This document shows, piece by piece, positions 3,105-39,680 of a stretch of DNA of 43,583 bases. The translations under genes were made by a program, and so were the position numbers. Source of the stretch: Lysobacter sp. ISL-50 (GTDB taxonomy: Bacteria; Pseudomonadota; Gammaproteobacteria; Xanthomonadales; Xanthomonadaceae); the NCBI RefSeq assembly GCF_018612875.1, contig NZ_JAGGRI010000044.1, forward strand, positions 1 to 43,583, written 5' to 3'. Numbering within the stretch: the first letter of the stretch is position 1; every line of letters begins with the position of its first letter. The notes beneath the pieces were generated by a model that made no database searches, was not told the DNA's origin, and was given only the letters and a program-made list of their open reading frames with translations.

Positions 3105-3467
3105 ATGCATATCGATTACTTCCGCGTCGTCCTGTCGCTGGCCCTGTGCCTGGGACTGGGCGTGGGCGCCATCTACCTGCTGCGCTCGCGCTTTCGCGGC
3201 TTGAGCGCGCGCGTCACCCGCGACCTGTCCTTGCTGGAAAGCCTGCAGATCGATCCGCGCACCGCCGTGCACGTGCTCGGCTACAAGGGCGAGCGTCTGC
3301 TGCTGACCACCCGCGACAACGCCATTCACGTCACCGCCCTGCGCAGCGTCGATGACGACGCCACCGCCGCGAGCGAGCCCGCGCCGCGGGACGATGCCGC
3401 CGATACCGACATCGATGCCACGGCCGCGAACGCCGCCGAATCCCACGCTGGAGCCCGCGCGTCATGA
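3105..3467 (+). CDS. fliO: Flagellar biosynthetic protein FliO
   Basis: The protein has 120 residues. One membrane segment near the N-terminus (about residues 7-26, VVLSLALCLGLGVGAIYLL) is followed by a small cytoplasmic domain with the FliO pattern (LSLLESLQIDPRTAVHVLGYKGERLLL) and an acidic, Ala-rich disordered tail. In the family, FliO is a chaperone that helps assemble the FliP pore complex and is not itself part of the finished export gate. Its place between fliN and fliP matches the canonical fliMNOPQR order. It overlaps fliP by four bases. Confidence 0.88.
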   Translation: MHIDYFRVVLSLALCLGLGVGAIYLLRSRFRGLSARVTRDLSLLESLQIDPRTAVHVLGYKGERLLLTTRDNAIHVTALRSVDDDATAASEPAPRDDAADTDIDATAANAAESHAGARAS

Positions 3468-4234
3468 AGTCCTTCCTGCTGCGCCATCGCCGATGGCTGC
3501 TGCTGTCGCTGCTGCTGGCGGTGTTCGCCGCGGCCTCGGCCATGGCCGCCACGCCGCCGCCGGACCCGTTCACCCAGCAAGGCGGCGTGCTCACCGCGCT
3601 CAAGGGCGGCACCAGCGAAAGCGTGCGCATCGCCACCGTGCTCACCCTGCTGAGCATCGTGCCGGCGCTGGTCATTTCGATGACCGCCTTCATCCGCATC
3701 ATCATCGTGCTGTCGATGATCCGCCACGCCTTCGGCATGCCGGAAACGCCGCCGACGCCGGTGCTGATCAGCCTGGGGCTGCTGCTGACCGTGTTCACGA
3801 TGTTGCCGACCCTGGAGAAGATCAACACCCAGGCCTATCAACCGTTCATGAGCGGTCAGATGACCTTGGACGTGGCGCTGGAGAAAGGCGCCGGCCCGGC
3901 CAAGGAGTTCATGCTGCGGCAGGTGCGCGAGGACGAGCTGAAGGTGATGTACGAGATCTCCGGCAAGCCGCTGCCCGATTCGCCCGAGCAGGTCAGCCTG
4001 CTCCAGCTGACCTCGGCCTTCATCCTCAACGAACTGCGCGTGGCCTTCCAGATCGGCTTCGTGATCCTGCTGCCGTTCCTGTTGATCGACCTGGTCGTGT
4101 CCAGCGTGTTGTTGTCGCTGGGCATGCTGATGGTTCCGCCGGCGACGATCTCGTTGCCGCTCAAGGTGCTGATGTTCGTGCTGGTGGACGGATGGAGCCT
4201 GATCCTGCAAGGCGTGATTCTCAGCTTCAAATGA
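3464..4234 (+). CDS. fliP: Flagellar export-gate protein FliP
   Basis: The protein has 256 residues, the usual FliP length. It has a cleavable signal peptide (basic start, hydrophobic core, AMA near residue 27) and four membrane segments. Diagnostic motifs are SIVPALVISMTAFIRIIIVL followed by MIRHAFGMPETPP (about 62-95), then LLQLTSAFILNELRVAFQIG (about 180-200) and the C-terminal VPPATISLPLKVLMFVLVDGW. FliP forms the pentameric core of the type III export gate with FliQ and FliR. Normally fliQ, fliR and flhB follow; here the next gene is a sigma factor, so the rest of the gate must be encoded elsewhere. Confidence 0.95.
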   Translation: MKSFLLRHRRWLLLSLLLAVFAAASAMAATPPPDPFTQQGGVLTALKGGTSESVRIATVLTLLSIVPALVISMTAFIRIIIVLSMIRHAFGMPETPPTPVLISLGLLLTVFTMLPTLEKINTQAYQPFMSGQMTLDVALEKGAGPAKEFMLRQVREDELKVMYEISGKPLPDSPEQVSLLQLTSAFILNELRVAFQIGFVILLPFLLIDLVVSSVLLSLGMLMVPPATISLPLKVLMFVLVDGWSLILQGVILSFK

Positions 4235-24067: not shown

Positions 24068-25165
24068 TCACTTGTCGAGCAGATTGTCGGTATTGGCCGC
24101 GTTGTTGATGATGTTGGAGAACGGCAGCAGCTGATTGACGAAGCGATTCCAGCGGGTCACGCCGGCCGGTCCCACGAACACTACATCGCCCGCGCGCACC
24201 GGGAACTGGCTGGCCAGCGCATAGGACGCCGGCGACTTGGCGTTGAGGTGATAGATCATCGCCGGTTCCTTGCGCATGTCTTCCACGCCGCGGATCACGT
24301 AGACCGCTTCGCCCTTGGCGGTCAGCGGATTGAGCCCGCCGGCGCGGCCCAGCGCCTGAGTCAGGGTCATGTCGGTGGTCTTGAAGGTCAGCGCCTGCGG
24401 GCGCATGACTTCGCCGACCACATAGACTTCCTTGCGATCGTTGTACGGCATGTACAGATGATCGCCGGCCTTCAGGTAAATATCCTTCGCCACCGATTCG
24501 CCGCGATTGAGCCCGTCCAGATCCAGACGGTACTGCTTGTCGCCGCGGGTCAGCACGAATCCGGACAGATCCGCGCGGATCGGGTCCACCGTCGCCGCGC
24601 CGATCGCCTGCGCCAGGGTCAACGGCGTCGCGGTGATCGACTGGCGATCGGTCTTGACGAACGCGCCCTGCAAGGTCACGCGCTGGCTGCCGTAGTCGAT
24701 GATGCTCAGATCGACCTGCGGGCTTTCGACGAAGCGCGAAATCTTGTCGGTGAGCAGCGTGCGCAGCTCTTCGATGGTCAGGCCTTCCGCGCGCACCACG
24801 CCGACATACGGATAGAACAGCGTGCCGTCCGGCCGCACCATGCGCCCGTTCGCGGCCGCCTGCTGCTGGGTGCCAGCCGGCGAGGTCAACTCCGGGTGAT
24901 CCCAGATGGTGATGTACAGCGTGTCGCCGCGGCCGATGCGGTAGGAATCGGGCTGATACGCCATCAGCTCGGCCGGCAACGCGATCTGGCTGCGATGCTG
25001 CGTCGACAGATATTCCGGCGTGATCGAGACCATCTTGATATGGCCGTCGTCGGCGACGCCGCTGCGCACGAACTGGCTTGGCGAAATGTATTGGCCCGGG
25101 GCCAACATGCAGCCCGGGAGTCCGACGATGGCGGCGACAGCCAACGCGCGCGAAAACTTGCTCAT
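24068..25165 (-). CDS. wza: Outer-membrane polysaccharide export protein (Wza/GumB family)
   Basis: The protein has 365 residues and is a lipoprotein: the lipobox LPGC places the acylated cysteine at residue 19. A polysaccharide-export domain begins near residue 75 (YRIGRGDTLYITIWDHPELT), followed by two SLBB-type repeats (about 170-250 and 255-330) and a C-terminal amphipathic stretch (TRWNRFVNQLLPFSNIINN, about 338-356) that would form the outer-membrane barrel helix. It forms the channel that carries capsule or exopolysaccharide across the outer membrane, docking on Wzc. It is transcribed away from wzb-wzc, unlike the standard wza-wzb-wzc order. The ATG at 25165 is fixed by the signal peptide. 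Confidence 0.93.
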   Translation of the reverse strand: MSKFSRALAVAAIVGLPGCMLAPGQYISPSQFVRSGVADDGHIKMVSITPEYLSTQHRSQIALPAELMAYQPDSYRIGRGDTLYITIWDHPELTSPAGTQQQAAANGRMVRPDGTLFYPYVGVVRAEGLTIEELRTLLTDKISRFVESPQVDLSIIDYGSQRVTLQGAFVKTDRQSITATPLTLAQAIGAATVDPIRADLSGFVLTRGDKQYRLDLDGLNRGESVAKDIYLKAGDHLYMPYNDRKEVYVVGEVMRPQALTFKTTDMTLTQALGRAGGLNPLTAKGEAVYVIRGVEDMRKEPAMIYHLNAKSPASYALASQFPVRAGDVVFVGPAGVTRWNRFVNQLLPFSNIINNAANTDNLLDK

Positions 25166-25369
25166 GGTGTCGTCTCTAAATCGCGAACGCGGATGAGGCC
25201 GGGCGCCTGTGCGGGCCGATGCCGGACGCATGCGGACACGGCACGACTTCGCCATTGCGCGCCGCTGAATAAGGATGAGTGCCGACCGCTGACGCCGGAC
25301 GAACAAGATACGGTTGGCGCATGAATCCTCAGTAGATTACGTCGTTACTGGTGCTGCCCCCGTGCAAAA

Positions 25370-25683: not shown

Positions 25684-26118
25684 GTGTTCAAACGAGTTTT
25701 GATGGTTTGCGTGGGCAACATCTGCCGCAGTCCGACCGCGGAAATGTTGCTGCGCCATGAGTTGCAAGGTCGGGATGTCACCGTAGAATCCGCCGGTCTT
25801 GGCGCCTTGGCGGGTCATCCGATCGACGCTACAGCACAGGCTGTGCTGGAAGGACATGGATTGAGTGGGCAATCCCATGTCGCGAGACAGATCGACCGCG
25901 CGATGATCGATGCGGCCGATCTGATACTGACGATGGAGCCATGGCAGATCGATGCCGTGCTCCGCATTTCCCCACATGCGCGAGGCAAGACCTATCTACT
26001 AGGCAAATGGCTGGACAACACCAGCATTCCGGACCCATACCGGCAATCGCGCAACGCGTTCGAACAGGCCTATCAGCTGATCAGCTCGGGGGTGAGCAGC
26101 TGGAGGGCCTATCTGTGA
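25684..26118 (+). CDS. wzb: Low-molecular-weight protein-tyrosine phosphatase (Wzb)
   Basis: The protein has 144 residues. The P-loop VCVGNICRSPTAE (about 8-20) contains the catalytic CX5R, and the general acid is the aspartate in IPDPYRQ (about 122). Wzb removes phosphates from the C-terminal tyrosines of the Wzc kinase, cycling polymer export. The start is a GTG; TGAGG upstream is at a rather long distance. The GC level is visibly below that of wzc. It lies 36 bases before wzc, with a T-rich spacer. Confidence 0.92.
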   Translation: MFKRVLMVCVGNICRSPTAEMLLRHELQGRDVTVESAGLGALAGHPIDATAQAVLEGHGLSGQSHVARQIDRAMIDAADLILTMEPWQIDAVLRISPHARGKTYLLGKWLDNTSIPDPYRQSRNAFEQAYQLISSGVSSWRAYL

Positions 26119-26154: not shown

Positions 26155-28383
26155 ATGTCGGCAGCCCCCACGACGCCCGGTCCGTACCAGGACAGAAGCA
26201 ACGATGAGATAGACCTGGCCGCGCTGCTGGGTACGTTGCTCGACCACAAATGGCTGATCGTCGGCGTCACCTCGATCGGCTTCGTGCTCGCCGTCGCTTA
26301 TGCGCTGATCGCCTCGCCGGTGTACCAGGCCAATGCGATGGTGCAGGTGGAGTCCAATGCGCCGACCCTGCCCGGCCTGACCGCGGTCACCCAGGCGCTG
26401 ACCGATTCGGCGCCGCAGGCGGTAACCGAAATCGCGCTGCTGACTTCGCGCTCGGTGGTCGGCAAGGCGGTGCAGGACCTCAAGCTGGACGTGCAGATCG
26501 AACCGGTCCGCTTCGTGCTGATCGGCGGGCTGATGGCGCGCCGCTATCAGCCGACCCGCCCGGGCGACGTGGCTTCGCCGTGGCTCGGCCTCAACAGCTA
26601 CGGCTGGGGCGGCGAAAGCCTGCACGTGGCGCAGCTCAGCGTCACCGACGAACTGGTCGCCACGCCGCTGACCCTGGTCGTCGGCGAGGCCGGCGCGTAC
26701 CGCCTGTACGACGAAGACGACACCCAGTTGCTCAGCGGCAAGGTCGGCGAAACCGCCACCGGCGGCGGCGTCAGCCTGCAGGTCAAGGACATGGCCGCCA
26801 ATCCGGGCATGCGCTTCGAGATCACTCAGCTCTCGCGCCTGGCCATCATCACCGCGCTGCAGAACAACCTGATCGCCACGGAAAAAGCGAAGGACTCCGG
26901 CATCCTGCAGCTGAGCTACCAACTCGGCGATCCGGACCTGGCCGCGCAGACGCTCGATGCGATCACCCGCCAGTACACCAGGCAGAACGTCGAACGCAAT
27001 TCCGCCGAAGCCGCCAACAGCCTGAAGTTCGTCAACGGGCAATTGCCGAAGACGCGGCGCGATCTGGAAAAGGCCGAGCAAGCGCTGGCCAAGTACCAGG
27101 AGCAGGCGCACACGGTCGATATCACCCTGGACGCGCAATCGCTGCTCGATCAGATCGTGGCGCTGGACACGAGCATCTCGCAGTTGAAGATGCAGCAGGC
27201 CGAAGTCAGCCGCCGCTTCACCCCGCAACATCCGGCCTACAAGGCCTTGATGTCGCAGTTGGGCGAACTGGAATCGCGCAAGCAGCAGATCAACGACCGC
27301 ATCAGCGTGCTGCCGCAGACCCAGCAGGAACTGCTGGGCCTGACCCGCGAAGTGCAAGTCACCACGCTCACCTACACCAACCTGCTCAATCAGGCGCAGC
27401 AGCTGGATATCGCCCGCGCCGGCACGGTCGGCAACGCCCGCATCGTCGACAAGTCGGTGGTGGACATCAGCCAGCCGGTCAAGCCCAAGCGCCTGCTGAT
27501 CGTGATGATCGGCACCTTCGTCGCCGGCTTCCTGGCGGTGGCCTGGGTGTTCCTGCGCCAGATGCTCAGCCGCGGCGTCGAAGACGTGAAGGAGATCGAG
27601 CAGCTCGGCCTGCCGATCTACGCTTCGATTCCGATGAGCGATTTCCAGCGCGGCCACCAGAAGCTCGGCCGCAAGCTGCAGAGCAACGGCACGCGCCTGG
27701 ACAAGCCGCATCTGCTCGCGCTCGACGCGCCCAACGATCTGGCGATCGAGGCCATGCGCAGCCTGCGCACCGCGCTGCACTTCGCCCGGATGGAGGCGAA
27801 CAACAACATCCTGATGGTGTGCGGCGCCAGCCCCGGCGCCGGCAAGACCTTCGTGTCCACCAACCTGGCCGCGGTGATCGCGCAGGGCGGACAGCGCGTG
27901 CTGCTGATCGACGGCGACCTGCGCCGCAGCACATTGCACAAGGTGCTGGGCCAGGACCCGCACAACGGCCTGTCGGATTTGCTGATCGGCCGCATCGACG
28001 TGAAGACCGCCACCCGCGCCACCGCCATCCCCGGCCTGGACTTCATTCCGCGCGGCGAAGCGCCGCCCAATCCGTCCGAGCTGCTGATGCGTCCGAACCT
28101 GGGCGTGCTGCTGAAAATGGCTTCGCAGCAATACGACCTGGTCATCATCGATACGCCGCCGATCCTCGCGGTCACCGACGCGGCGATCATCGGCCGTCAT
28201 ACCGCGACCAGCATCATGGTGGTGCGCTTCGGCCTGAATCCGCCCAAGGAGCTGGCGATGGCGATTCAGCGTTTCGAACAGAACGGCATCGACCTCAAGG
28301 GCGCGGTATTCAACGCCGTCGAACGCCGTCACGACACCAACTACGCATACGGCTACGAGTACAGGGCGACGCCGGAGAAGTGA
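26155..28383 (+). CDS. wzc: Polysaccharide co-polymerase with tyrosine kinase domain (Wzc)
   Basis: The protein has 742 residues. The N-terminal Wzz domain has a membrane segment at about 33-53 and a second at about 443-463, enclosing a long coiled-coil periplasmic region. The cytoplasmic BY-kinase has Walker A GASPGAGKT at 557-565, Walker A' LLIDGDLRR at 583-591 and Walker B VIIDTPP at 663-669. The C-terminal tail has a tyrosine cluster (Y730, Y732, Y734, Y736), the autophosphorylation site. Wzc controls chain length and opens Wza. It is the second gene of the wzb transcription unit. Confidence 0.95.
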   Translation: MSAAPTTPGPYQDRSNDEIDLAALLGTLLDHKWLIVGVTSIGFVLAVAYALIASPVYQANAMVQVESNAPTLPGLTAVTQALTDSAPQAVTEIALLTSRSVVGKAVQDLKLDVQIEPVRFVLIGGLMARRYQPTRPGDVASPWLGLNSYGWGGESLHVAQLSVTDELVATPLTLVVGEAGAYRLYDEDDTQLLSGKVGETATGGGVSLQVKDMAANPGMRFEITQLSRLAIITALQNNLIATEKAKDSGILQLSYQLGDPDLAAQTLDAITRQYTRQNVERNSAEAANSLKFVNGQLPKTRRDLEKAEQALAKYQEQAHTVDITLDAQSLLDQIVALDTSISQLKMQQAEVSRRFTPQHPAYKALMSQLGELESRKQQINDRISVLPQTQQELLGLTREVQVTTLTYTNLLNQAQQLDIARAGTVGNARIVDKSVVDISQPVKPKRLLIVMIGTFVAGFLAVAWVFLRQMLSRGVEDVKEIEQLGLPIYASIPMSDFQRGHQKLGRKLQSNGTRLDKPHLLALDAPNDLAIEAMRSLRTALHFARMEANNNILMVCGASPGAGKTFVSTNLAAVIAQGGQRVLLIDGDLRRSTLHKVLGQDPHNGLSDLLIGRIDVKTATRATAIPGLDFIPRGEAPPNPSELLMRPNLGVLLKMASQQYDLVIIDTPPILAVTDAAIIGRHTATSIMVVRFGLNPPKELAMAIQRFEQNGIDLKGAVFNAVERRHDTNYAYGYEYRATPEK

Positions 28384-28902: not shown

Positions 28903-31260
28903 ATGATGAAAGAACAGTTCGTCATCGCGTGCGCCCTGACGTTCGTGGTCACCAGCATCGCGATGTACGCGATGTACCCGGTCGCCGGGCGGCTCGGTCT
29001 GATCGACCGGCCTAACGCGCGCAAACAGCATAAGGGCCACATTCCCGTCATCGGCGGGATCAGCTTCTTTCTCGGCCTGCTCGCCGGCGCCTTCTACCTG
29101 GGCCTGGCCGATCGCTTCGCGGTCTGCCTGATCGCCACCTCCAGCCTGATTGTGGTCACCGGCGCGATCGACGACGCAAAAGACCTCAGCGTGCGCGCGC
29201 GGCTGCTGATCCAGACCATCGCGGTCGGCCTGATGATCTCCGGCAGCGGCGTGTACCTCAACGACCTGGGCAATCTGTTCGGCACCGGCGCGATCCGCCT
29301 GGGCTGGATCGGCGTTCCGGTCACGGTGATCGCGGTGGTCGGCCTGATCAACGCCTTCAACATGCTCGACGGCATCGACGGCCTCGCCGGCAGCATGGCG
29401 ATGGTCGGCATCGGCGCGATCTTCCTGTTCGACAACGGCGGCGTGTTGTCCAAGGGCGCGCTGCCCTTGATGCTGCTGTTGTTCGTCGCGCTGGTTCCGT
29501 ACCTGTTCGTCAACCTGGGCGGCATGAACGAGCGCAAGATCTTCATGGGCGACGCCGGCAGCATGCTGATCGGTTACCTGACCGCGTGGAGCCTGATCTA
29601 CCTGAGCCAGCGCGGCGCGGCGCGTATCGATGCGGCCGAAGCGCTGTGGTGCATCGCCCTGCCGGTGTTCGAGACGCTCACCGTCATGTACCGCCGGGTC
29701 AGCAAGGGCCTGTCGCCGTTCAAGCCCGACCGACAGCATCTGCACTACATCCTGCTCGACCACCAGCGTTCGCCCAAGGGCGCGCTGATGACCATCGTCG
29801 GCATCGCCTGCGCGCTCACCGCGGTGGGTTACGCGCTGCGCGATCTGCCGGTCGTGGGCGGCCTGCTCGCGTTCTTCTTCGCCATGGCCGTCTATTCCCT
29901 CGCGCTGGCCCACGGCGACAAGCTCAAGCGCCTGCGCGGCATGCCGGAAGGACCGGACACGCCGGAACTGGCGTTCGCGCCGGAAGGCTCGGTGCCGCTG
30001 AAGACCACGCCGACGCCGGCCACCGCCTATGCGCGCAACAACCTCGCCGGCGAATTCGCCTCGCATCCGCTGTCCACGCCGGCCAACGTGGCGCTGTCGC
30101 AGCCTTCGCGCGCGATCAAGACCCTGTGCGTGTTCGGCACCCGCCCGGAGGCGATCAAGATGGCGCCGCTGGCGAAGATGCTGGCGCAGGACCCGCGCTT
30201 CGACGCGCGCGTGTGCGTGACCGGCCAGCACCGGCAGATGCTGGACCAGGTGCTGAACCTGTTCGACCTGCAGCCGGACTTCGATCTCAACATCATGAAG
30301 CCCAAGCAGGACCTCACCGACGTCACCACCGCGATCCTGACCGGCATGAAGCAGGTGCTGTCCGAGCTCAAGCCCGACGTGGTGCTGGTGCACGGCGATA
30401 CCTCGACCACCATGGCGACCACGCTGGCCGCGTACTACCAGCAGATTCCGGTGGCGCACGTCGAAGCCGGCCTGCGCACCGGCAACCTGTACTCGCCGTG
30501 GCCGGAAGAGGCCAACCGCAAGCTCACCGGCGCGCTGGCGGCGATGCATTTCGCGCCGACCACGCTGTCGAGCCAGAACCTGCTCGACGAAGGCATTCCG
30601 ACCGAGCGCATCGCCGTCACCGGCAACACCGTGATCGACGCGCTCAAGGAAGTGCTGGTGCGCATCGACCGCACGCCGGCGCTGCGCAACGAAGTCGCCT
30701 CGCAATTCAGTTTCCTCGACCCGCAGCGGCGCATCGTGCTGGTCACCGGCCATCGCCGCGAAAGCTTCGGCGGCGGCTTCGAGCGCATCTGCCACGCCTT
30801 GCGCGACAGCGCGCTGCGGCATCCGGATGTCGATATCGTCTATCCGATGCACCTCAATCCGCAGGTGCGCGAGCCGGTCAACCGCCTGCTCACCGGCATC
30901 ACCAACGTCCATCTGATCGAGCCGCTGGATTACCTGCCCTTCGTCTACCTGATGAACAAGGCCTACATCATCCTCACCGATTCGGGCGGCATCCAGGAAG
31001 AAGCGCCGTCGCTGGGCAAGCCGGTGCTGGTGATGCGCGACACCACCGAGCGGCCCGAAGCGGTCGCCGCCGGCACGGTCAAGCTGGTCGGCACCGATCG
31101 CCAGCTGATCGCCGACGGCATCAGCGAACTGCTCAACAACCGCGCCGCATACGAGGCGATGAGTTTCGCCCACAACCCTTACGGCGACGGCCTGGCCTGT
31201 CAGCGCATCGTCGAGGCCCTGGCCAGTTTCAATCGCGAAGACTCGCTGCTCGCCGCTTGA
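28903..31260 (+). CDS. Fused WecA-WecB: GlcNAc-1-phosphate transferase plus UDP-GlcNAc 2-epimerase
   Basis: One uninterrupted frame of 785 residues carries two enzymes. Residues 1-345 are a polytopic WecA/TagO/MraY-family sugar-phosphate transferase (D90-D91 in [16 protein letters not shown] at 153-160, [16 protein letters not shown]) that attaches GlcNAc-1-P or a related sugar to undecaprenyl phosphate. A Pro/Ala-rich linker (about 345-404) leads to a non-hydrolysing UDP-GlcNAc 2-epimerase (WecB) domain at about 405-785: [44 protein letters not shown] and [15 protein letters not shown]. WecB makes UDP-ManNAc, the substrate of WecC encoded next. These are normally separate genes. ATG 28903 is chosen; TTG 28888 is possible. 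Confidence 0.93.
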
Positions 31261-31369: not shown

Positions 31370-32626
31370 ATGAGTTTCGACACCGTCTCGGTCATCGGCC
31401 TGGGTTACATCGGCCTCCCCACCGCCGCCGCTTTCGCCGCCGTGCGCAAGCAGGTCATCGGCATCGACGTGAACCGGAATATCGTCGATACGATCAACCG
31501 CGGCGAGATCCACATCGTCGAGCCGGATCTCGACGTGGCGGTGCGCGCGGCGGTCTCGGGCGGTTTCCTGCGCGCCTCGATCCAGCCCGAATCGGCCGAC
31601 GCCTACCTGATCGCGGTGCCCACGCCGTTCAAGAACGACCATGAGCCGGACCTGCGCTACATCGAAGCGGCGGCCAAGGCGCTGGCGCCGGTGCTGCGCA
31701 AGGGCGATCTGGTGGTGCTGGAATCCACCTCGCCGGTCGGCGCGACCGAACAGCTGGCGCAGTGGCTGTCGGAGGCGCGTTCGGACCTGAGCTTTCCGCA
31801 GGACGCCGGCGAAGACGCCGACGTCAACGTCGCCCACTGCCCCGAGCGCGTGCTGCCGGGCCATGTGATGCGCGAGCTGATCGAGAACGACCGCGTCATC
31901 GGCGGCATGACCCCGCGCTGCTCGGCGCGCGCCTGCGAGCTGTACAAGAGCTTCGTGCGCGGCGAGTGCATCGTCACCAACGCGCGCACCGCCGAGATGT
32001 GCAAGCTGACCGAGAACGCGTTCCGCGACGTCAACATCGCCTTCGCCAACGAGCTGTCGATCATCTGCGACAAGCTCGGCATCAACGTGTGGGATCTGGT
32101 GCAGCTGGCCAACCGCCATCCGCGCGTCAACATCCTGCAGCCGGGCCCCGGCGTCGGCGGCCACTGCATCGCGGTGGACCCGTGGTTCATCGTCGATAGC
32201 GCGCCGGAGCAGGCGCGACTGATCCGCACCGCGCGCGAGGTCAACAACAGCAAGCCGCGCTGGGTGATGGACAAGGTCGATGCCGCCATCGCCGAAGCCA
32301 AGGCCGACGGCAAGCAGGACAAGGACCTGACCATCGCCGTGTTCGGCCTGTCGTTCAAGCCCGACATCGACGACCTGCGCGAAAGCCCCGCGCTCGACAT
32401 CGCCATCGAACTGGCCGCGCGCCACCCGGGCAAGGTACTCGCGGTCGAGCCGCATATCGATGCGTTGCCGGAGAAGCTCAAGTCGCCGAACCTGATCCTG
32501 GTGGATTTCCCCACCGCGAGCGCGCAGGCCGACATCGGCCTGCTGCTGGTCGATCACAAGCCGTTCCGGGAGCAGGCCGCGCCGACGCACCTGCGCCTGG
32601 TCGATACCAAGGGCATCTGGGTCTGA
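31370..32626 (+). CDS. wecC: UDP-N-acetyl-D-mannosamine dehydrogenase
   Basis: The protein has 418 residues. NAD-binding motif GLGYIGLP at 10-17; catalytic cysteine C266 in GPGVGGHCIAVDPW; TENAFRDVNIAFANELS and FGLSFKPDIDDLRESPALD complete the UDP-glucose/UDP-ManNAc dehydrogenase pattern. Residues such as HIVEPDLD and the immediate WecB partner favour WecC over other members. It oxidises UDP-ManNAc to UDP-ManNAcA in two steps with NAD. ATG 31370 lies after an upstream GGAGGATCACTGGAG sequence; spacing suits the second GGAG. Confidence 0.93.
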   Translation: MSFDTVSVIGLGYIGLPTAAAFAAVRKQVIGIDVNRNIVDTINRGEIHIVEPDLDVAVRAAVSGGFLRASIQPESADAYLIAVPTPFKNDHEPDLRYIEAAAKALAPVLRKGDLVVLESTSPVGATEQLAQWLSEARSDLSFPQDAGEDADVNVAHCPERVLPGHVMRELIENDRVIGGMTPRCSARACELYKSFVRGECIVTNARTAEMCKLTENAFRDVNIAFANELSIICDKLGINVWDLVQLANRHPRVNILQPGPGVGGHCIAVDPWFIVDSAPEQARLIRTAREVNNSKPRWVMDKVDAAIAEAKADGKQDKDLTIAVFGLSFKPDIDDLRESPALDIAIELAARHPGKVLAVEPHIDALPEKLKSPNLILVDFPTASAQADIGLLLVDHKPFREQAAPTHLRLVDTKGIWV

Positions 32627-32657: not shown

Positions 32658-33950
32658 ATGATCCGACGACTGATCACCACCGCCAGTCTCTCGGCCGTGA
32701 GCGCCATGGCCTCGCGCGGGGCGATCTTCGCCGGCGTGCTGCTGGTCGCCGGTTTGCTGGGGCCGCGGGCGTTCGGCCAGTTCACCCTGATCCAGACCAC
32801 GGCGCTGTTGTTCACCACGTTCTGCGCGCTCAGCCTGGGGCAGATGGCGACCAAGATCGTCGCCGAAGCCCTGCAGGGTTCGCGCGAGCGCATGGCGGTG
32901 GCGTGGTCGGTGTCGTACGGCTCGGCGTTGCTGATCTCGCTGGTGTTCGCGGTGGCGATCGTGGCGCTGTCGCCGCTGGTGGCGCGCTACGTCGGCCACG
33001 ACCCCGCGCTCACGCCGGTGTACGCCAGCTCCAGCCTGCTGGTGCTGGCGGGCTTTCTCACCGCGATCCAGAACGGCGTCGCCCTGGCCGTGGGCCGGGT
33101 CAAGGAACAGGCCTGGGCCAACCTGCTCAGCGCGCCGATCGCCTTCGCGATCATGGTGCTGGCGGCGTTTCAGCGCGATCTGCATTGGGCGATGTACGGC
33201 TACATCGCCTCGCAGATGGTGATCGCCGTCGGCCAGGAGCGCAGCCTGCGCCGCTACCGCCGCGAACACGGCCTGAGGTTGTCGCTGCGCGCGACCACGC
33301 GCGCGGACTGGTCGGTGCTGTGGCGGCTCGGCCTGCCCTCGTCGCTGGCCGGATTGCTGACCGTGCCGGCGATGTGGCTGGTGATGGTGATGCTCTCGCA
33401 CACCGCCGACGGCGCCACCGACCTGGGCCATTTCGCCCTCGGCAATCAGGCCCGCTCGATCCTGCTGTTCGGCATCGGCGTGGTCGCCAATGCCGCGCTG
33501 CCGATGCTGTCCTCGGCGCTGGCTCAGGGCGATCGCCACGGAGCCTCGACGGTGCTGCGTCATTCAATGGCGCTGCTGCTGGCGATCACCGGCGGCATCG
33601 CCGTGCTGGCCGCGCTGGCGGCGCCGCCGTTGATCCGCGCGCTGGCGCCAGCCTATGCCGGCTCGGTGGAACCGCTGCAGTGGCTGCTGGCCTCGGTGGT
33701 GGCGACCGCGCCGACCACGATCCTGATGCGCAAGGCCACCGCCGACGGCCGCCCGTCGATCCTGCTCGCCGGCAACGCGGTGTTCTGCGTGGTCCTGCTG
33801 GCCACCGCCGCGGTCGCCCTGCATCTGCGCGGCGGCGCGACCGGCCTGGCGTTCGCGTACTTCCTCGCCTCGCTGATGCAGCTACTGACTTTCGCCCTGT
33901 TCAACCGAAACGAGCTGCGCTGGAAGGCGCTGGCCCGGAGCAATTCATGA
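32658..33950 (+). CDS. wzx: Oligosaccharide flippase (Wzx-like, MOP superfamily)
   Basis: The protein has 430 residues with 12 predicted membrane segments and few polar residues. The start (ASRGAIFAGVLLVAGLLGPRAFGQFTLIQ) and the inner repeat (FALGNQARSILLFGIGVVANAALPMLSSAL) are typical of polysaccharide transporters that flip undecaprenyl-linked repeat units to the periplasm. It begins 31 bases after wecC and ends in an ATGA overlap with the first acyltransferase gene. Sequence within this family is too variable to state the sugar. Confidence 0.88.
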   Translation: MIRRLITTASLSAVSAMASRGAIFAGVLLVAGLLGPRAFGQFTLIQTTALLFTTFCALSLGQMATKIVAEALQGSRERMAVAWSVSYGSALLISLVFAVAIVALSPLVARYVGHDPALTPVYASSSLLVLAGFLTAIQNGVALAVGRVKEQAWANLLSAPIAFAIMVLAAFQRDLHWAMYGYIASQMVIAVGQERSLRRYRREHGLRLSLRATTRADWSVLWRLGLPSSLAGLLTVPAMWLVMVMLSHTADGATDLGHFALGNQARSILLFGIGVVANAALPMLSSALAQGDRHGASTVLRHSMALLLAITGGIAVLAALAAPPLIRALAPAYAGSVEPLQWLLASVVATAPTTILMRKATADGRPSILLAGNAVFCVVLLATAAVALHLRGGATGLAFAYFLASLMQLLTFALFNRNELRWKALARSNS

Positions 33951-34477: not shown

Positions 34478-35011
34478 ATGTCCGCCCTGTCCAAGACCTG
34501 CTACGTGTTCGCGCGCACTTTGTCGGCGTTCGGCCTGCCCGGCCTGCGCGGGCTGCGCACGCGCGTGTACCGCTGGCATTTCCGCGCCGAACGCATGAGC
34601 GTGTCGGACCGGGTGATGGTGGTCGCCGCGCACCGCAGCGAGCACGCCGCGATCGCCTTCGGTCGCGGCGTCGAGCTGGGCGCCGATGCCTACATCGACT
34701 ACTCCGGCGGAGTACAGGTCGGCGATCACGTCGCCATTTCCGAAAGCGCGAAGATCTTCACGCACAACCACGTCGTGCGCAGCGGCCATGCCGACTGGCA
34801 TCGCAATCCGATCGAGTTCTCGCCGCTGCGGATCGAGGACTTCGCCTGGGTCGGCGCCGGCGCCATCGTGCTGCCGCGGGTGAAGCGCATCGGCCGCGGC
34901 GCCATCGTCGGCGCCGGCGCGGTGCTGGCCGAGGACGTGCCGGATTTCGCCGTGTACGCCGGCAATCCCGCGCGCGAGATCTTCCGTCGCGACATCGACG
35001 GCGCGGGCTAG
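34478..35011 (+). CDS. Hexapeptide-repeat acyltransferase (second of two)
   Basis: The protein has 177 residues. Beta-helix repeats run from about 60 to 160 (IAFGRGVELGADAYIDYSGG, then FAWVGAGAIVLPRVKRIGRG, then AIVGAGAVLAEDVPDFAVYA), with KIFTHNHVVRSGH holding the catalytic histidines. The cap AGNPAREIFRR is standard for sugar O-acetyltransferases of the WbbJ/NodL group. It differs strongly from the first acyltransferase, so the two likely modify different positions. A strong AGGAGG lies at its end, serving the polymerase gene. Confidence 0.87.
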   Translation: MSALSKTCYVFARTLSAFGLPGLRGLRTRVYRWHFRAERMSVSDRVMVVAAHRSEHAAIAFGRGVELGADAYIDYSGGVQVGDHVAISESAKIFTHNHVVRSGHADWHRNPIEFSPLRIEDFAWVGAGAIVLPRVKRIGRGAIVGAGAVLAEDVPDFAVYAGNPAREIFRRDIDGAG

Positions 35012-35023
35012 GAGGACGACGGC

Positions 35024-36355
35024 ATGGCGATCCTCTACTTCGTGTTCTTCATCGGCCTGGTGATGCTGGCGTTCACGCGCATCGGCGGCCGGCTCGACCG
35101 CTTGTTCGTCAACCCGATCCTGGTCTTCATCCTCACCGTCGCCTTCATCTACGGCTTCATTCCGTGGCTGAAGGATTTGCATCAGGTCCAGACCTACCCG
35201 TTCTACTACTCCTTCGACGCCAAACTGGCGGCGCTGATGTTCTCGCTGGTGTTCTGTCTGTCCGGCATCGCCGGTTATGCCTCCGCCGGCGGCCTGAGCC
35301 GGCCGGTGCTGCCGCAGGTGCGCAGCCTGACCCGGCGCGAGCGCCGCCGCGTGCTGGTGCTGGTCGGGATTCCGGCGATGTGCGCGGTGATCTACCTGGC
35401 GCGCACGGTGGCCAGCTACGACCTGGCCGACTACATGAAGGACCGCATCATGATCCGCCGCGGCATGGGCCCGGCGGTGGTGCTGGCGTTCGCGGCGATC
35501 TGCTACTGCGCGATCCTGGTCACCAACTACCTCGCCTCGCGCCGCACCGACGGCCCGCCGCTGGCGCGCTGGCGATTGCTGCCGATCGGCGGCGTGGTGC
35601 TGGTGGTGGCGGTGGCGTTCGTGGCGATGGGCAACCGCAACTTCGTCTTCATCCTGATCGCGATCCTGCTGCTGGCCTCGCTGTCGATCTACCGCGGCGA
35701 AATCGGCCGCGCGCTGATGCTGCTGCCGCTGCTGCTGATCATCGCCCTGGGCCTTTCGGCCTGGGCCAAGGTGCGCACCACGCTCGACAGCGCCGACAGC
35801 TCCAGCCTCACCAGCGAAGGCCCGGTGCAGTTGCTGGTGTACGGCCTCAATGGCGCCTTCGGCAATGCCGAGAACCTGACCTGGCTTGCGCAGAACGATT
35901 CGCGCTGGGACTTCGTCTACGGCGAGACCGTGTTCGCCGCCGCGGTCAATCCGATCCCGCGCGCGCTGTGGCCGGACAAGCCCTTCGGCGGCGGCCCGGC
36001 GCTGCGCAACATGATCTATCCGGGCAGCTACACCCTGGAAGGCGAAAAACTCACCTCCTACACCACCGGCCTGCCGACCGAGGGCTACATGAACTTCGGC
36101 CTGTTGGGACTGATCGCGTTCGGCGCGGTCAACGGCGCCTGCCTGGCCGGCATCCGCAAGGTCTATGCGCGCCGGCGCGTGGTCACGCCGGTCGGCGTGG
36201 TGATCTACAGCTTCTCGATCTTCATGTTCTCTTCCGGATTTCTCTACATGGAACTGCTCGGCGGCTGGAGCCGTTATTTCATCACCCTGCTGTTGCTGTA
36301 CGCCGTCACCTGGGTCGGCAACCGCCCCATCCGCATGCGCGGAGCCATGGCATGA
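35024..36355 (+). CDS. wzy: O-antigen/exopolysaccharide polymerase (Wzy-like)
   Basis: The protein has 443 residues with about 10-11 membrane segments and one large periplasmic loop (about 255-340), which includes FVYGETVFAAAVNPIPRALWP and a YTTGLPTEGYMNFGLLG turn. This topology and context fit the oligosaccharide-repeat polymerase family, which joins lipid-linked units into the long polymer in the periplasm. Primary sequence alone is weakly diagnostic. AGGAGG at 35011-35016 is a strong ribosome-binding site. The end overlaps the next gene by ATGA. Confidence 0.8.
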   Translation: MAILYFVFFIGLVMLAFTRIGGRLDRLFVNPILVFILTVAFIYGFIPWLKDLHQVQTYPFYYSFDAKLAALMFSLVFCLSGIAGYASAGGLSRPVLPQVRSLTRRERRRVLVLVGIPAMCAVIYLARTVASYDLADYMKDRIMIRRGMGPAVVLAFAAICYCAILVTNYLASRRTDGPPLARWRLLPIGGVVLVVAVAFVAMGNRNFVFILIAILLLASLSIYRGEIGRALMLLPLLLIIALGLSAWAKVRTTLDSADSSSLTSEGPVQLLVYGLNGAFGNAENLTWLAQNDSRWDFVYGETVFAAAVNPIPRALWPDKPFGGGPALRNMIYPGSYTLEGEKLTSYTTGLPTEGYMNFGLLGLIAFGAVNGACLAGIRKVYARRRVVTPVGVVIYSFSIFMFSSGFLYMELLGGWSRYFITLLLLYAVTWVGNRPIRMRGAMA

Positions 36356-37532: not shown

Positions 37533-39680
37533 ATGCAACAAGTCCTGCAAAACCTGCGCGACGGCAGCACTGAAGTCGCCGACGTCCCCGCTCCCGCGCT
37601 GCGCCGCGGGCATCTGCTGATCCGCAGCCACGTCACCCTGGTTTCGGCCGGCACCGAGCGCATGCTGGTCGAGTTCGGCAAGGCCAACATGCTGCAGAAG
37701 GCGCGCCAGCAACCGGACAAGGTGCGCATGGTGCTGGAGAAGATCCGCACCGACGGTCTGGCGCCGACGCTCGACGCGGTGCGCAGCAAGCTCGATCAAC
37801 CGCTGGCGCTGGGCTATTGCAACGTCGGCACGGTGATCGGCATCGGCCCGGGCGTGACCGGGTTCGAGCTAGGCGATCGCGTCGCCTCCAACGGCAAGCA
37901 CGCCGAAGTGGTCGCGGTGCCGGTCAATCTGTGCGCGAAGATTCCGGACGAAGTGGACGACGAGTCCGCCGCGTTCACCGTGCTCAGCGCGATCGCGCTG
38001 CAGGGCATCCGTCTGGTCCAGCCCACCCTCGGCGAAACCGTGGTGGTCACCGGCCTGGGCCTGATCGGCCTGATCACCGTGCAACTGCTGCGCGCGCACG
38101 GCTGCCGCGTGCTCGGCATCGACTTCGATCCGGCCAAGCTCGCGCTGGCGCGCAGCTACGGCGCGCAGACCGTCGATCTGTCCAAGGGCGAGGACCCGCT
38201 CGCCGCCGCGCAGACGTTCTCGCGCGGACGCGGCGTCGATGCGGTGCTGATCACCGCCTCGACCAAGAGCAACGAGCCGGTCTCGCAGGCCGCGCACATG
38301 TGCCGCAAGCGCGGCCGCATCGTCCTGGTCGGCGTCACCGGCCTGGAACTGTCGCGCGCGGATTTCTACGAAAAAGAACTGTCGTTCCAGGTGTCGTGCT
38401 CGTACGGCCCGGGCCGGTACGACGCCTCCTACGAAGAACGCGGCAACGATTATCCGGTCGCCTTCGTGCGCTGGACCGAGCAACGCAACTTCGAAGCGGT
38501 GCTGGACATGATGGCCAGCCGCGCGGTCGACGCCAGCGCGCTGGTCAGCCATCGCTACGGCATCGCCGATGCCGAACAGGCCTACGGCGTGCTCGGCGGC
38601 GGCGAACCTTCACTGGGCATCATGCTCGACTATCGCCGCGGCGAAGAAATGCCCGACGACCTGATCCGGCGCAAGGTGCCGCTGCCGGCCAAGCCGGCGG
38701 TGCGCGAAGTCGCCGGCGATACCGACGGCGCCGGCGTGGCCTTCATCGGCGCCGGCAACTACGCCGGCCGCGTGCTGATCCCGGCCTTCGTCAAGTCCGG
38801 CGCCAAGCTGCACACGGTAGTGACCAACAACGGCGTCGGCAGCGTCCACTTCGGCAAGAAGTACGGTTTCCGCAACGCCAGCACCGACACCGACGCGCTG
38901 CTGCGCGACGCCAGCGTCGGCTCGGTGGTGATCGCGACCCAGCACGGCAGCCACGCCGAGCTGACCTTCAAGTCCTTGCGCCGCGGCAAGCACGTGTTCG
39001 TCGAAAAGCCGCTGTGCCTGACCTTGGAAGAACTGCAGACCATCGAGAAGGCGCACGGCGAGCAATCGGTCTACGGCACCCCGCCGGTGCTGATGGTCGG
39101 CTTCAACCGCCGCTTCGCCCCGCAGGTGAAGAAGATGCACCAACTGCTGGCCGGCGTGCGCGAACCCAAATCGTTCGTGATGACGGTCAACGCCGGCGCG
39201 ATTCCGGCCGATCACTGGACCCAGGACCCGCAACTCGGCGGCGGCCGCCTGATCGGCGAGGCCTGCCACTTCGTCGATCTGCTGCGCTTCCTCGCCGGCT
39301 CGCCGATCGTCAGCCATCAACTCACCGCGGTCGGCGACGCCAGCGGCATCCGCAGCGACCGGGTCAGCTTCACCCTGAGTTTCGCCGACGGTTCCTTCGG
39401 CACCGTGCATTACCTCGCCAACGGCCATAAGAGCTTCCCGAAGGAACGCCTGGAAGTGTTCACCGCCGGCCGCGTGCTGGCGCTGGACAACTTCCGCAAG
39501 CTGCGCGGTTACGGCTGGCCGGGTTTCAGCAAAATGAATCTGTGGAGCCAGGACAAGGGCCAGGCCGCCTGCGCCGCGGCCTTCATGCAGGCGGTGCAAG
39601 GCAAGTCGCCGCCGCCGATCCCGCCGGAAGAAATCTTCGAGGTGGCGCGGGTCACCATCGAACTGGATGCGTCGGTCTGA
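37533..39680 (+). CDS. Two-domain oxidoreductase: zinc-type MDR dehydrogenase fused to Gfo/Idh/MocA
   Basis: The protein has 715 residues. Residues 1-350 are a medium-chain dehydrogenase: FELGDRVASNGKHAE and the NAD motif VTGLGLIG (G174 onward), then DASYEERGNDYP. Residues about 400-715 are a Gfo/Idh/MocA domain: VAFIGAGNYAGRVLIPAFVK (G406 onward), VFVEKPLCLTLEEL with the conserved EKP, then GEACHFVDLLRF. Such bi-domain proteins recur in polysaccharide loci beside heparinase-like genes. It may make or modify a nucleotide sugar, for instance a keto or amino-sugar intermediate; this is inferred. The heparinase-like gene follows closely. Confidence 0.88.
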   Translation: MQQVLQNLRDGSTEVADVPAPALRRGHLLIRSHVTLVSAGTERMLVEFGKANMLQKARQQPDKVRMVLEKIRTDGLAPTLDAVRSKLDQPLALGYCNVGTVIGIGPGVTGFELGDRVASNGKHAEVVAVPVNLCAKIPDEVDDESAAFTVLSAIALQGIRLVQPTLGETVVVTGLGLIGLITVQLLRAHGCRVLGIDFDPAKLALARSYGAQTVDLSKGEDPLAAAQTFSRGRGVDAVLITASTKSNEPVSQAAHMCRKRGRIVLVGVTGLELSRADFYEKELSFQVSCSYGPGRYDASYEERGNDYPVAFVRWTEQRNFEAVLDMMASRAVDASALVSHRYGIADAEQAYGVLGGGEPSLGIMLDYRRGEEMPDDLIRRKVPLPAKPAVREVAGDTDGAGVAFIGAGNYAGRVLIPAFVKSGAKLHTVVTNNGVGSVHFGKKYGFRNASTDTDALLRDASVGSVVIATQHGSHAELTFKSLRRGKHVFVEKPLCLTLEELQTIEKAHGEQSVYGTPPVLMVGFNRRFAPQVKKMHQLLAGVREPKSFVMTVNAGAIPADHWTQDPQLGGGRLIGEACHFVDLLRFLAGSPIVSHQLTAVGDASGIRSDRVSFTLSFADGSFGTVHYLANGHKSFPKERLEVFTAGRVLALDNFRKLRGYGWPGFSKMNLWSQDKGQAACAAAFMQAVQGKSPPPIPPEEIFEVARVTIELDASV

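Follow-up and report, generated by a model that had tools for sequence, protein, structure and literature searches.

WecA-type transferases start many bacterial surface glycans. In the window (the whole stretch of DNA analysed here, 43,583 nucleotides from Lysobacter sp. ISL-50), such a transferase and a WecB-type epimerase occupy one reading frame. Is this fusion real, what would its product do, and what would maintain it among relatives?

The fused gene and its exopolysaccharide locus

Flanked by wzc and wecC, the fused gene is part of an exopolysaccharide locus, which the wza-, wzb-, wzc-, wzx- and wzy-like genes found beside the priming transferase assign to the Wzx/Wzy/Wzc type:

24068..25306, - strand, wza-like export protein (domain matches Poly_export, SLBB and Wza_C)
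25684..26118, + strand, wzb-like low-molecular-weight phosphotyrosine phosphatase (Pfam LMWPc over cut-off; Wzb equivalog score under its cut-off)
26155..28383, + strand, wzc-like co-polymerase/tyrosine kinase (below the Wzc equivalog cut-off; TIGR01007 and Pfam Wzz and GNVR over cut-off)
28903..31260, + strand, fused WecA-WecB gene, 785 aa (Pfam/NCBIfam; complete in 15/20 genomes of the genus)
28903..29925, + strand, WecA-type transferase half, residues 1-341 (Pfam; motif residues)
29926..30114, + strand, linker, about residues 342-404 (about 60 residues; structureless in a low-confidence model)
30115..31227, + strand, WecB epimerase half, about residues 405-775 (Pfam, TIGR00236, nine active-site residues)
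31370..32626, + strand, wecC, UDP-ManNAc dehydrogenase (729.5 bits, cut-off 459; adjacent in 13/13 intact-type loci)
32658..33950, + strand, wzx-like flippase (domain match Polysacc_synt)
34478..35011, + strand, hexapeptide-repeat acetyltransferase (domain match)
35024..36355, + strand, wzy-like repeat-unit polymerase (TIGR04370, 55 bits, cut-off 40)

The frame comprises 785 codons and a terminal stop, and its translation displayed no internal stop; candidate start codons are ATG 28903, ATG 28906 and TTG 28888. The initial annotation had described a GlcNAc-1-P transferase and a UDP-GlcNAc 2-epimerase joined in this frame, two enzymes commonly made as distinct proteins. This was confirmed, since both Pfam domains scored over cut-off in the 785-residue product: PF00953 (Glycos_transf_4) over residues 75-234 (105 bits, cut-off 27) and PF02350 (Epimerase_2) over residues 426-773 (407.2 bits, cut-off 30.6). 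Likewise, its statement that the key motifs of both halves are intact was borne out by Pfam, NCBIfam and aligned residues.

The first half resembles WecA (UDP-GlcNAc:undecaprenyl-phosphate GlcNAc-1-P transferase) in its polytopic character, its PF00953 match and its acidic and HxH motifs, whose roles in this half are presumed. In an alignment of 48 fused proteins (15 from the same genus, three others with intact tails, of which one is titled Luteimonas and two belong to one other genus, and 30 with degenerate tails from 11 genera, two of them from the window's own genus), DD90-91, N150/N153, D156, D159, D217, H279 and H281 were kept in 48/48. The half is thus WecA-type, but it differs from WecA by its WecB tail and by a TIGR02380 (ECA_wecA) score of 272.4 bits, under the cut-off of 326.05, so that it does not score as an enterobacterial ECA WecA. 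A further difference lies at residues 279-282, where the motif reads HxHY in 15/15 same-genus fused proteins and HxHH in the other 33 of the 48.

The second half resembles WecB/MnaA, the non-hydrolysing UDP-GlcNAc 2-epimerase. E. coli WecB (PDB 1f6d) aligned without gaps to residues 406-775 (370 residues), TIGR00236 (the wecB equivalog) scored 517.5 bits (cut-off 210.15), and all nine substrate and catalytic residues were present, these being R, K, D, E, E, R, H, S and E of the P. alvei table in PMC11464976. Unlike WecB/MnaA, this half is covalently tethered to a membrane transferase and is degenerate in 30 of the 48 fused relatives aligned. The fused gene provided the genome's sole epimerase match above the Pfam cut-off, one other match reaching 24.5 bits.

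A linker of some 60 residues, as initially proposed, corresponds to residues 342-404 or so, which displayed no predicted secondary structure and a pLDDT of 23-33 per ten-residue block in a structure model that was poor overall (mean pLDDT 51.7) and was used for secondary structure and the linker only. Linker length ranged from 30 to 99 residues among the 48 fused proteins. Hydrophobic peaks and the helices predicted in this low-confidence model are consistent with a soluble second half that a structureless linker joins to a polytopic first half. The 25 residues past the last membrane helix carried net positive charge in 38/48 fused proteins and did not fit in 10/48, which weakly favours a cytoplasmic location of the tail.

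Both halves are intact, wecC lies directly downstream and no other epimerase of the genome scores over cut-off; the natural reading is a bifunctional enzyme tethered to the membrane, and bifunctionality of the window protein is most likely. Its WecA-type half would make GlcNAc-PP-undecaprenol, priming an exopolysaccharide of the Wzx/Wzy/Wzc type, while the flexible linker would tether a working WecB epimerase making UDP-ManNAc, which the adjacent WecC would oxidise to UDP-ManNAcA; the repeat unit probably contains ManNAcA. To this extent the membrane-anchored bifunctional enzyme of the initial annotation stands. The advantage it had invoked, both halves drawing from a shared UDP-GlcNAc pool so that lipid priming would be adjusted to UDP-ManNAc supply, does not suffice as the full reason for the fusion, since the epimerase half is degenerate yet kept in 30 of the 38 fusions of the family sample described below. 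UDP-GlcNAc would be used by the two halves in parallel and not in series, which argues against channelling between them; for the window protein, the gain would rather reside in co-expression, one-to-one stoichiometry and location.

Other parts of the window were also inspected. The locus contains a second two-domain fusion (37533-39680, 715 aa), which combines a zinc alcohol dehydrogenase-like and a GFO/IDH/MocA oxidoreductase part; next come a heparinase II/III-like gene and a glycosyltransferase. An unfused wecA lies next to matches to this gene set in L172 and next to matches to two of its genes in L173. The window start carries a flagellar rod/hook-type protein (688-1911) and FliP (3464-4234), both unrelated to the fusion.

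Distribution and history of the fusion

Close relatives share the fusion. Among 20 same-genus genomes (the window's own included), 15 displayed it whole, at 71-100% identity and with an open, full-length frame (1-785 or 2-785). This excludes a sequencing error that conceals a stop or a frameshift at the junction, across which the frame was open in 48/48 fused proteins aligned. Of the remaining same-genus genomes, G010 and G013 contained a shortened fusion, and no WecA of the fused type was found in G011, G012 and G015. A search of named genomes returned the whole fusion in eight loci among its best 80, five from Lysobacter and three from Luteimonas.

At the family level, the WecA half matched in 64 of 198 genomes (E 1e-25 or better), 38 at no less than 50% identity and 26 at 30-42%. 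A WecB-like tail was present on 38/38 of the former, without a single tail-less member, and none of the latter lay in a frame over 548 residues. The 38 fused genes fell into two sets: eight with intact tails, scoring over 400 bits against the epimerase model, and 30 with degenerate tails from 11 genera, scoring 38-189 bits (best match each). A separate strong epimerase (over 390 bits) was listed in 10 of the 30 degenerate-tail genomes.

Outside the family, a second family of the order contains related WecA proteins (44-51% identical), which were unfused in 14/14 loci fetched. Kangiella sp. HZ709 (L039) displays the same wecA-wecB-wecC order, but with wecA and wecB as separate adjoining frames, a layout from which a fusion could arise. 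The WecA half matched in 127 of 369 genomes of the class, and the matches listed there included six frames of at least 600 aa besides the window's; the five fetched displayed no WecB match, and the sixth is G709 (605 aa). Among the matches listed for the epimerase model in 200 genomes of the phylum, no frame besides the window's exceeded 531 aa; among those listed for the order, a 609-aa frame with an epimerase occurred in G267. In plasmid records, the 20 places listed of 82 covered at most 47% of the query, and none of the 82 covered 80%.

Several long frames were rejected as fusions. No WecA match was found in the family's long frames with a strong epimerase, L116, L118-L125 and L127-L129 (589-778 aa), which were taken as upstream extensions of the open frame, and the 1134-aa frame of G383 proved to be a WecA with an upstream extension and no WecB. 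A different arrangement was recorded in two class genomes, L196 (3453-5852) and L197 (2110-4566), where a WecA-type domain continues within one frame into a long hydrophobic region (about 800 aa in total); this second part looked polytopic by eye and gave no WecB match.

Epimerase trees were built with full-length tails, half-length ones being left out. Intact tails (8 rows) grouped with 13 rows of full-length dead tails in a single clade (100/98) that excluded the 17 free family epimerases; within it the dead tails formed a clade of their own (100/100). A quick tree with 16 dead rows also grouped intact and dead tails together (99.9). Constraining the dead tails to group with the free family epimerases gave a tree 20.8 log units worse, which was not rejected (p-AU 0.137). 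With the WecA tree alone, several branching orders of the intact, dead and other-family lineages survive: p-AU was 0.479 for a single clade of fused proteins, 0.535 for intact with the other family and 0.235 for dead with the other family.

Given this shared clade of intact and full-length dead tails, the best reading is one fusion followed by loss of catalysis, and the simplest account comprises one fusion, one catalysis loss and several losses of the C-domain. The other family of the order might, alternatively, have lost the tail secondarily. Conversely, the intact tail might not be ancestral, a dead tail having been replaced through recombination by an active free wecB. Intact tails indeed share up to 76% identity with free WecB from other gammaproteobacteria, full-length dead tails are just 31-44% identical to the window's tail, and the unsettled branching order of the WecA tree leaves room for such a swap. 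Yet a swap should break the clade uniting intact and full-length dead tails, which makes replacement rather unlikely.

Residue loss and constraint in the degenerate tails

The nine substrate and catalytic residues were all present in 18/18 intact-type tails. For the degenerate tails, counts refer to 29 proteins, or to the 22 possessing a C-domain, L154 being left out because it runs off its contig. In the N-domain, R414 was kept in 0/29, K419 in 4, D499 in 16, E521 in 9, E535 in 3 and R539 in 28; in the C-domain, H617 was kept in 3/22, S694 in 7 and E700 in 18, and the Ser-Gly-Gly motif was intact in 0/22. The 22 full-length degenerate tails kept one to six of the nine residues and thus lack the residue set of an active WecB. 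The loss is clear without being uniform, as D499, R539 and E700 often survive.

Allosteric positions followed a similar trend. The residue roles, active-site ones included, are those given in PMC11464976, and their mapping to the fused protein is our own. On this mapping, the six allosteric positions were present in 18/18 intact-type tails, whereas degenerate tails kept Q442 in 4/29, H443 in 0/29, Q445 in 12/29, Q469 in 3/29, R618 in 1/22 and H650 in 0/22. A degenerate tail could act as a precursor sensor, binding UDP-GlcNAc at the allosteric site and gating WecA according to precursor supply; in its favour, the six allosteric positions are complete in the intact-type tails, and with R539 and E700 so widely retained, some other ligand could still bind. 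However, most allosteric positions are lost on our mapping, and seven proteins lack the C-domain, which forms half of the allosteric site. Sensing of UDP-GlcNAc through the known site is thus disfavoured, and a sensor role as a whole appears improbable.

Loss of catalysis did not entail loss of constraint. All 30 degenerate frames were open through the tail seen (to the contig end for L154), and tail dN/dS was 0.037-0.401 in 16 degenerate gene pairs, which are not independent of one another. The degenerate tail evolves under purifying selection. It is nevertheless more relaxed than WecA, its dN/dS being higher than that of the WecA half in 13 of these pairs and lower in three, whereas the tail was the more constrained part in 7/7 intact gene pairs. 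Conservation was also unevenly distributed: among 25 thinned degenerate rows, pairwise identity amounted to 0.54-0.76 in strands b1, b2, b4, b5 and b7 and to 0.48 in b6, as compared with 0.19 in the catalytic and allosteric loops and 0.34 in the C-domain. For helices of the dead tails, it was 0.37 (a3), 0.52 (a4) and 0.46 (a5).

These data bear on the idea that the degenerate tail is functionless baggage of an old fusion in the course of decay. The missing catalytic residues, the several losses of the C-domain and the relaxation in 13/16 pairs would all be expected of decay, but open frames throughout, dN/dS well under 1, the contrast between strands and catalytic or allosteric loops and the lack of any tail-less member among the 38 genes of the fused WecA type (198 genomes) would not, and we regard mere decay as a poor prospect.

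The deletions themselves were selective. The C-terminal Rossmann domain was missing in seven degenerate proteins, which kept the N-domain, and this loss required four changes on the WecA tree, at least three of them forced by supported branches. In the half-deleted proteins, a helix like the last one of the epimerase was read by eye soon after the final N-domain strand; it aligned outright only in L025, was clear by eye in L021, L126, L150 and L152, was preceded by extra residues in L024 and was weak in L153. In the solved epimerase of the paper with the P. alvei table (PMC11464976), the last helix is associated with the N-domain. With the N-domain and, in most of the seven proteins, the last helix kept, the C-domain deletions leave a part that could fold alone and dimerise. 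The human GNE dimer is formed by the N-domain (PMC4793188), and helix a3 is one of the three GNE dimer helices.

Taken together, selection on the tail and the sparing of the N-domain by deletions point to a second, non-catalytic role. Since epimerases dimerise through the N-domain, the dead tail would most likely hold WecA chains together, and it is probably a dimerisation or scaffold module. Two observations go against this reading: the relaxation of the degenerate tail relative to WecA in 13/16 pairs, and helix a3, which is not specially conserved.

Tail state, pathway and significance of the fused lineage

Tail state was related to gene neighbourhood. The order wzb-wzc-fusion-wecC was recorded in 13/13 intact-type loci (about ten distinct genomes), while in the 15 degenerate loci read, wzc followed the fusion in all, wzb preceded it in 13 and no wecC match was found within 20 kb. 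A comparison of 36 genomes was in line with this: wecC at 55% identity or more was adjacent to the fusion in 6/6 intact-tail genomes and occurred in 5/30 degenerate-tail genomes, there elsewhere in the genome and about 10 kb or less from a separate wecB; the remaining matches were at most 37% identical. Loss of catalysis in the tail accompanies loss of a local need for UDP-ManNAc. Five degenerate-tail genomes with a separate epimerase had no wecC of at least 55% identity, which indicates that a free wecB alone is no sign of a ManNAcA pathway.

In three degenerate loci from three genera (L176, L178 and L181), beta-helix (pectate-lyase-like) genes occurred after wzc; among the genes scanned, an asparagine-synthase-like gene was found in two and a glycosyltransferase in two. 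The three apparently share one exopolysaccharide locus.

The constant company of wzc (15/15) and wzb (13/15) at degenerate loci might suggest a docking or phosphorylation platform for the Wzc kinase and the Wzb phosphatase, through which the kinase would control priming. A parallel is offered by S. aureus, where tyrosine phosphorylation by the CapAB kinase activates CapM, a priming transferase, and lipid-I synthesis rises 4-fold (PMC6441080). However, CapM differs in being a monotopic transferase and carries no such tail, and wzb and wzc also flank intact-type fusions, whose tail is explained by catalysis. By analogy, kinase docking would be the next candidate after a dimerisation or scaffold role, though still with a low probability.

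The reading that we favour, with some confidence, is that of a bifunctional window protein descending from a single fusion within the family, and of sister-lineage tails that died as enzymes and took on a non-catalytic role, most likely dimerisation. The WecA-WecB fusion would have arisen once in this bacterial family; a large sister lineage, whose locus is without wecC, would have lost tail catalysis while the tail was kept under purifying selection, and where the C-domain was deleted the N-domain stayed. A more specific proposal has slightly less than an even chance: that this one fusion founded a WecA family with a pseudoenzyme tail, a non-catalytic dimerisation or regulatory domain repeatedly cut down to the N-terminal Rossmann fold and cross-over helix, and placed between the tyrosine phosphatase and the tyrosine kinase that belong to the exopolysaccharide machinery.

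Both halves belong to known families; the fusion and its pseudoenzyme descendants represent a new variation on them, although the two-domain architecture may already be present in domain databases. No paper on a WecA-WecB fusion or on an inactive epimerase tail was found in full-text searches of an open-access library. A comparable case is the known fusion of a hydrolysing 2-epimerase, in which a 2-epimerase is likewise joined to a second sugar-pathway enzyme; there, however, a soluble partner takes the epimerase product, whereas here a membrane transferase shares the substrate.

In the window, a priming transferase is naturally tethered to an epimerase acting on nucleotide sugars, and relatives provide a comparative series of unfused, fused and intact, fused and degenerate, and fused and half-deleted forms. 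This series makes testable the role of a soluble tail on WecA-type transferases and the passage of a fused enzyme into a structural domain. For many such fused genes, naming by homology as UDP-GlcNAc 2-epimerase would be wrong.
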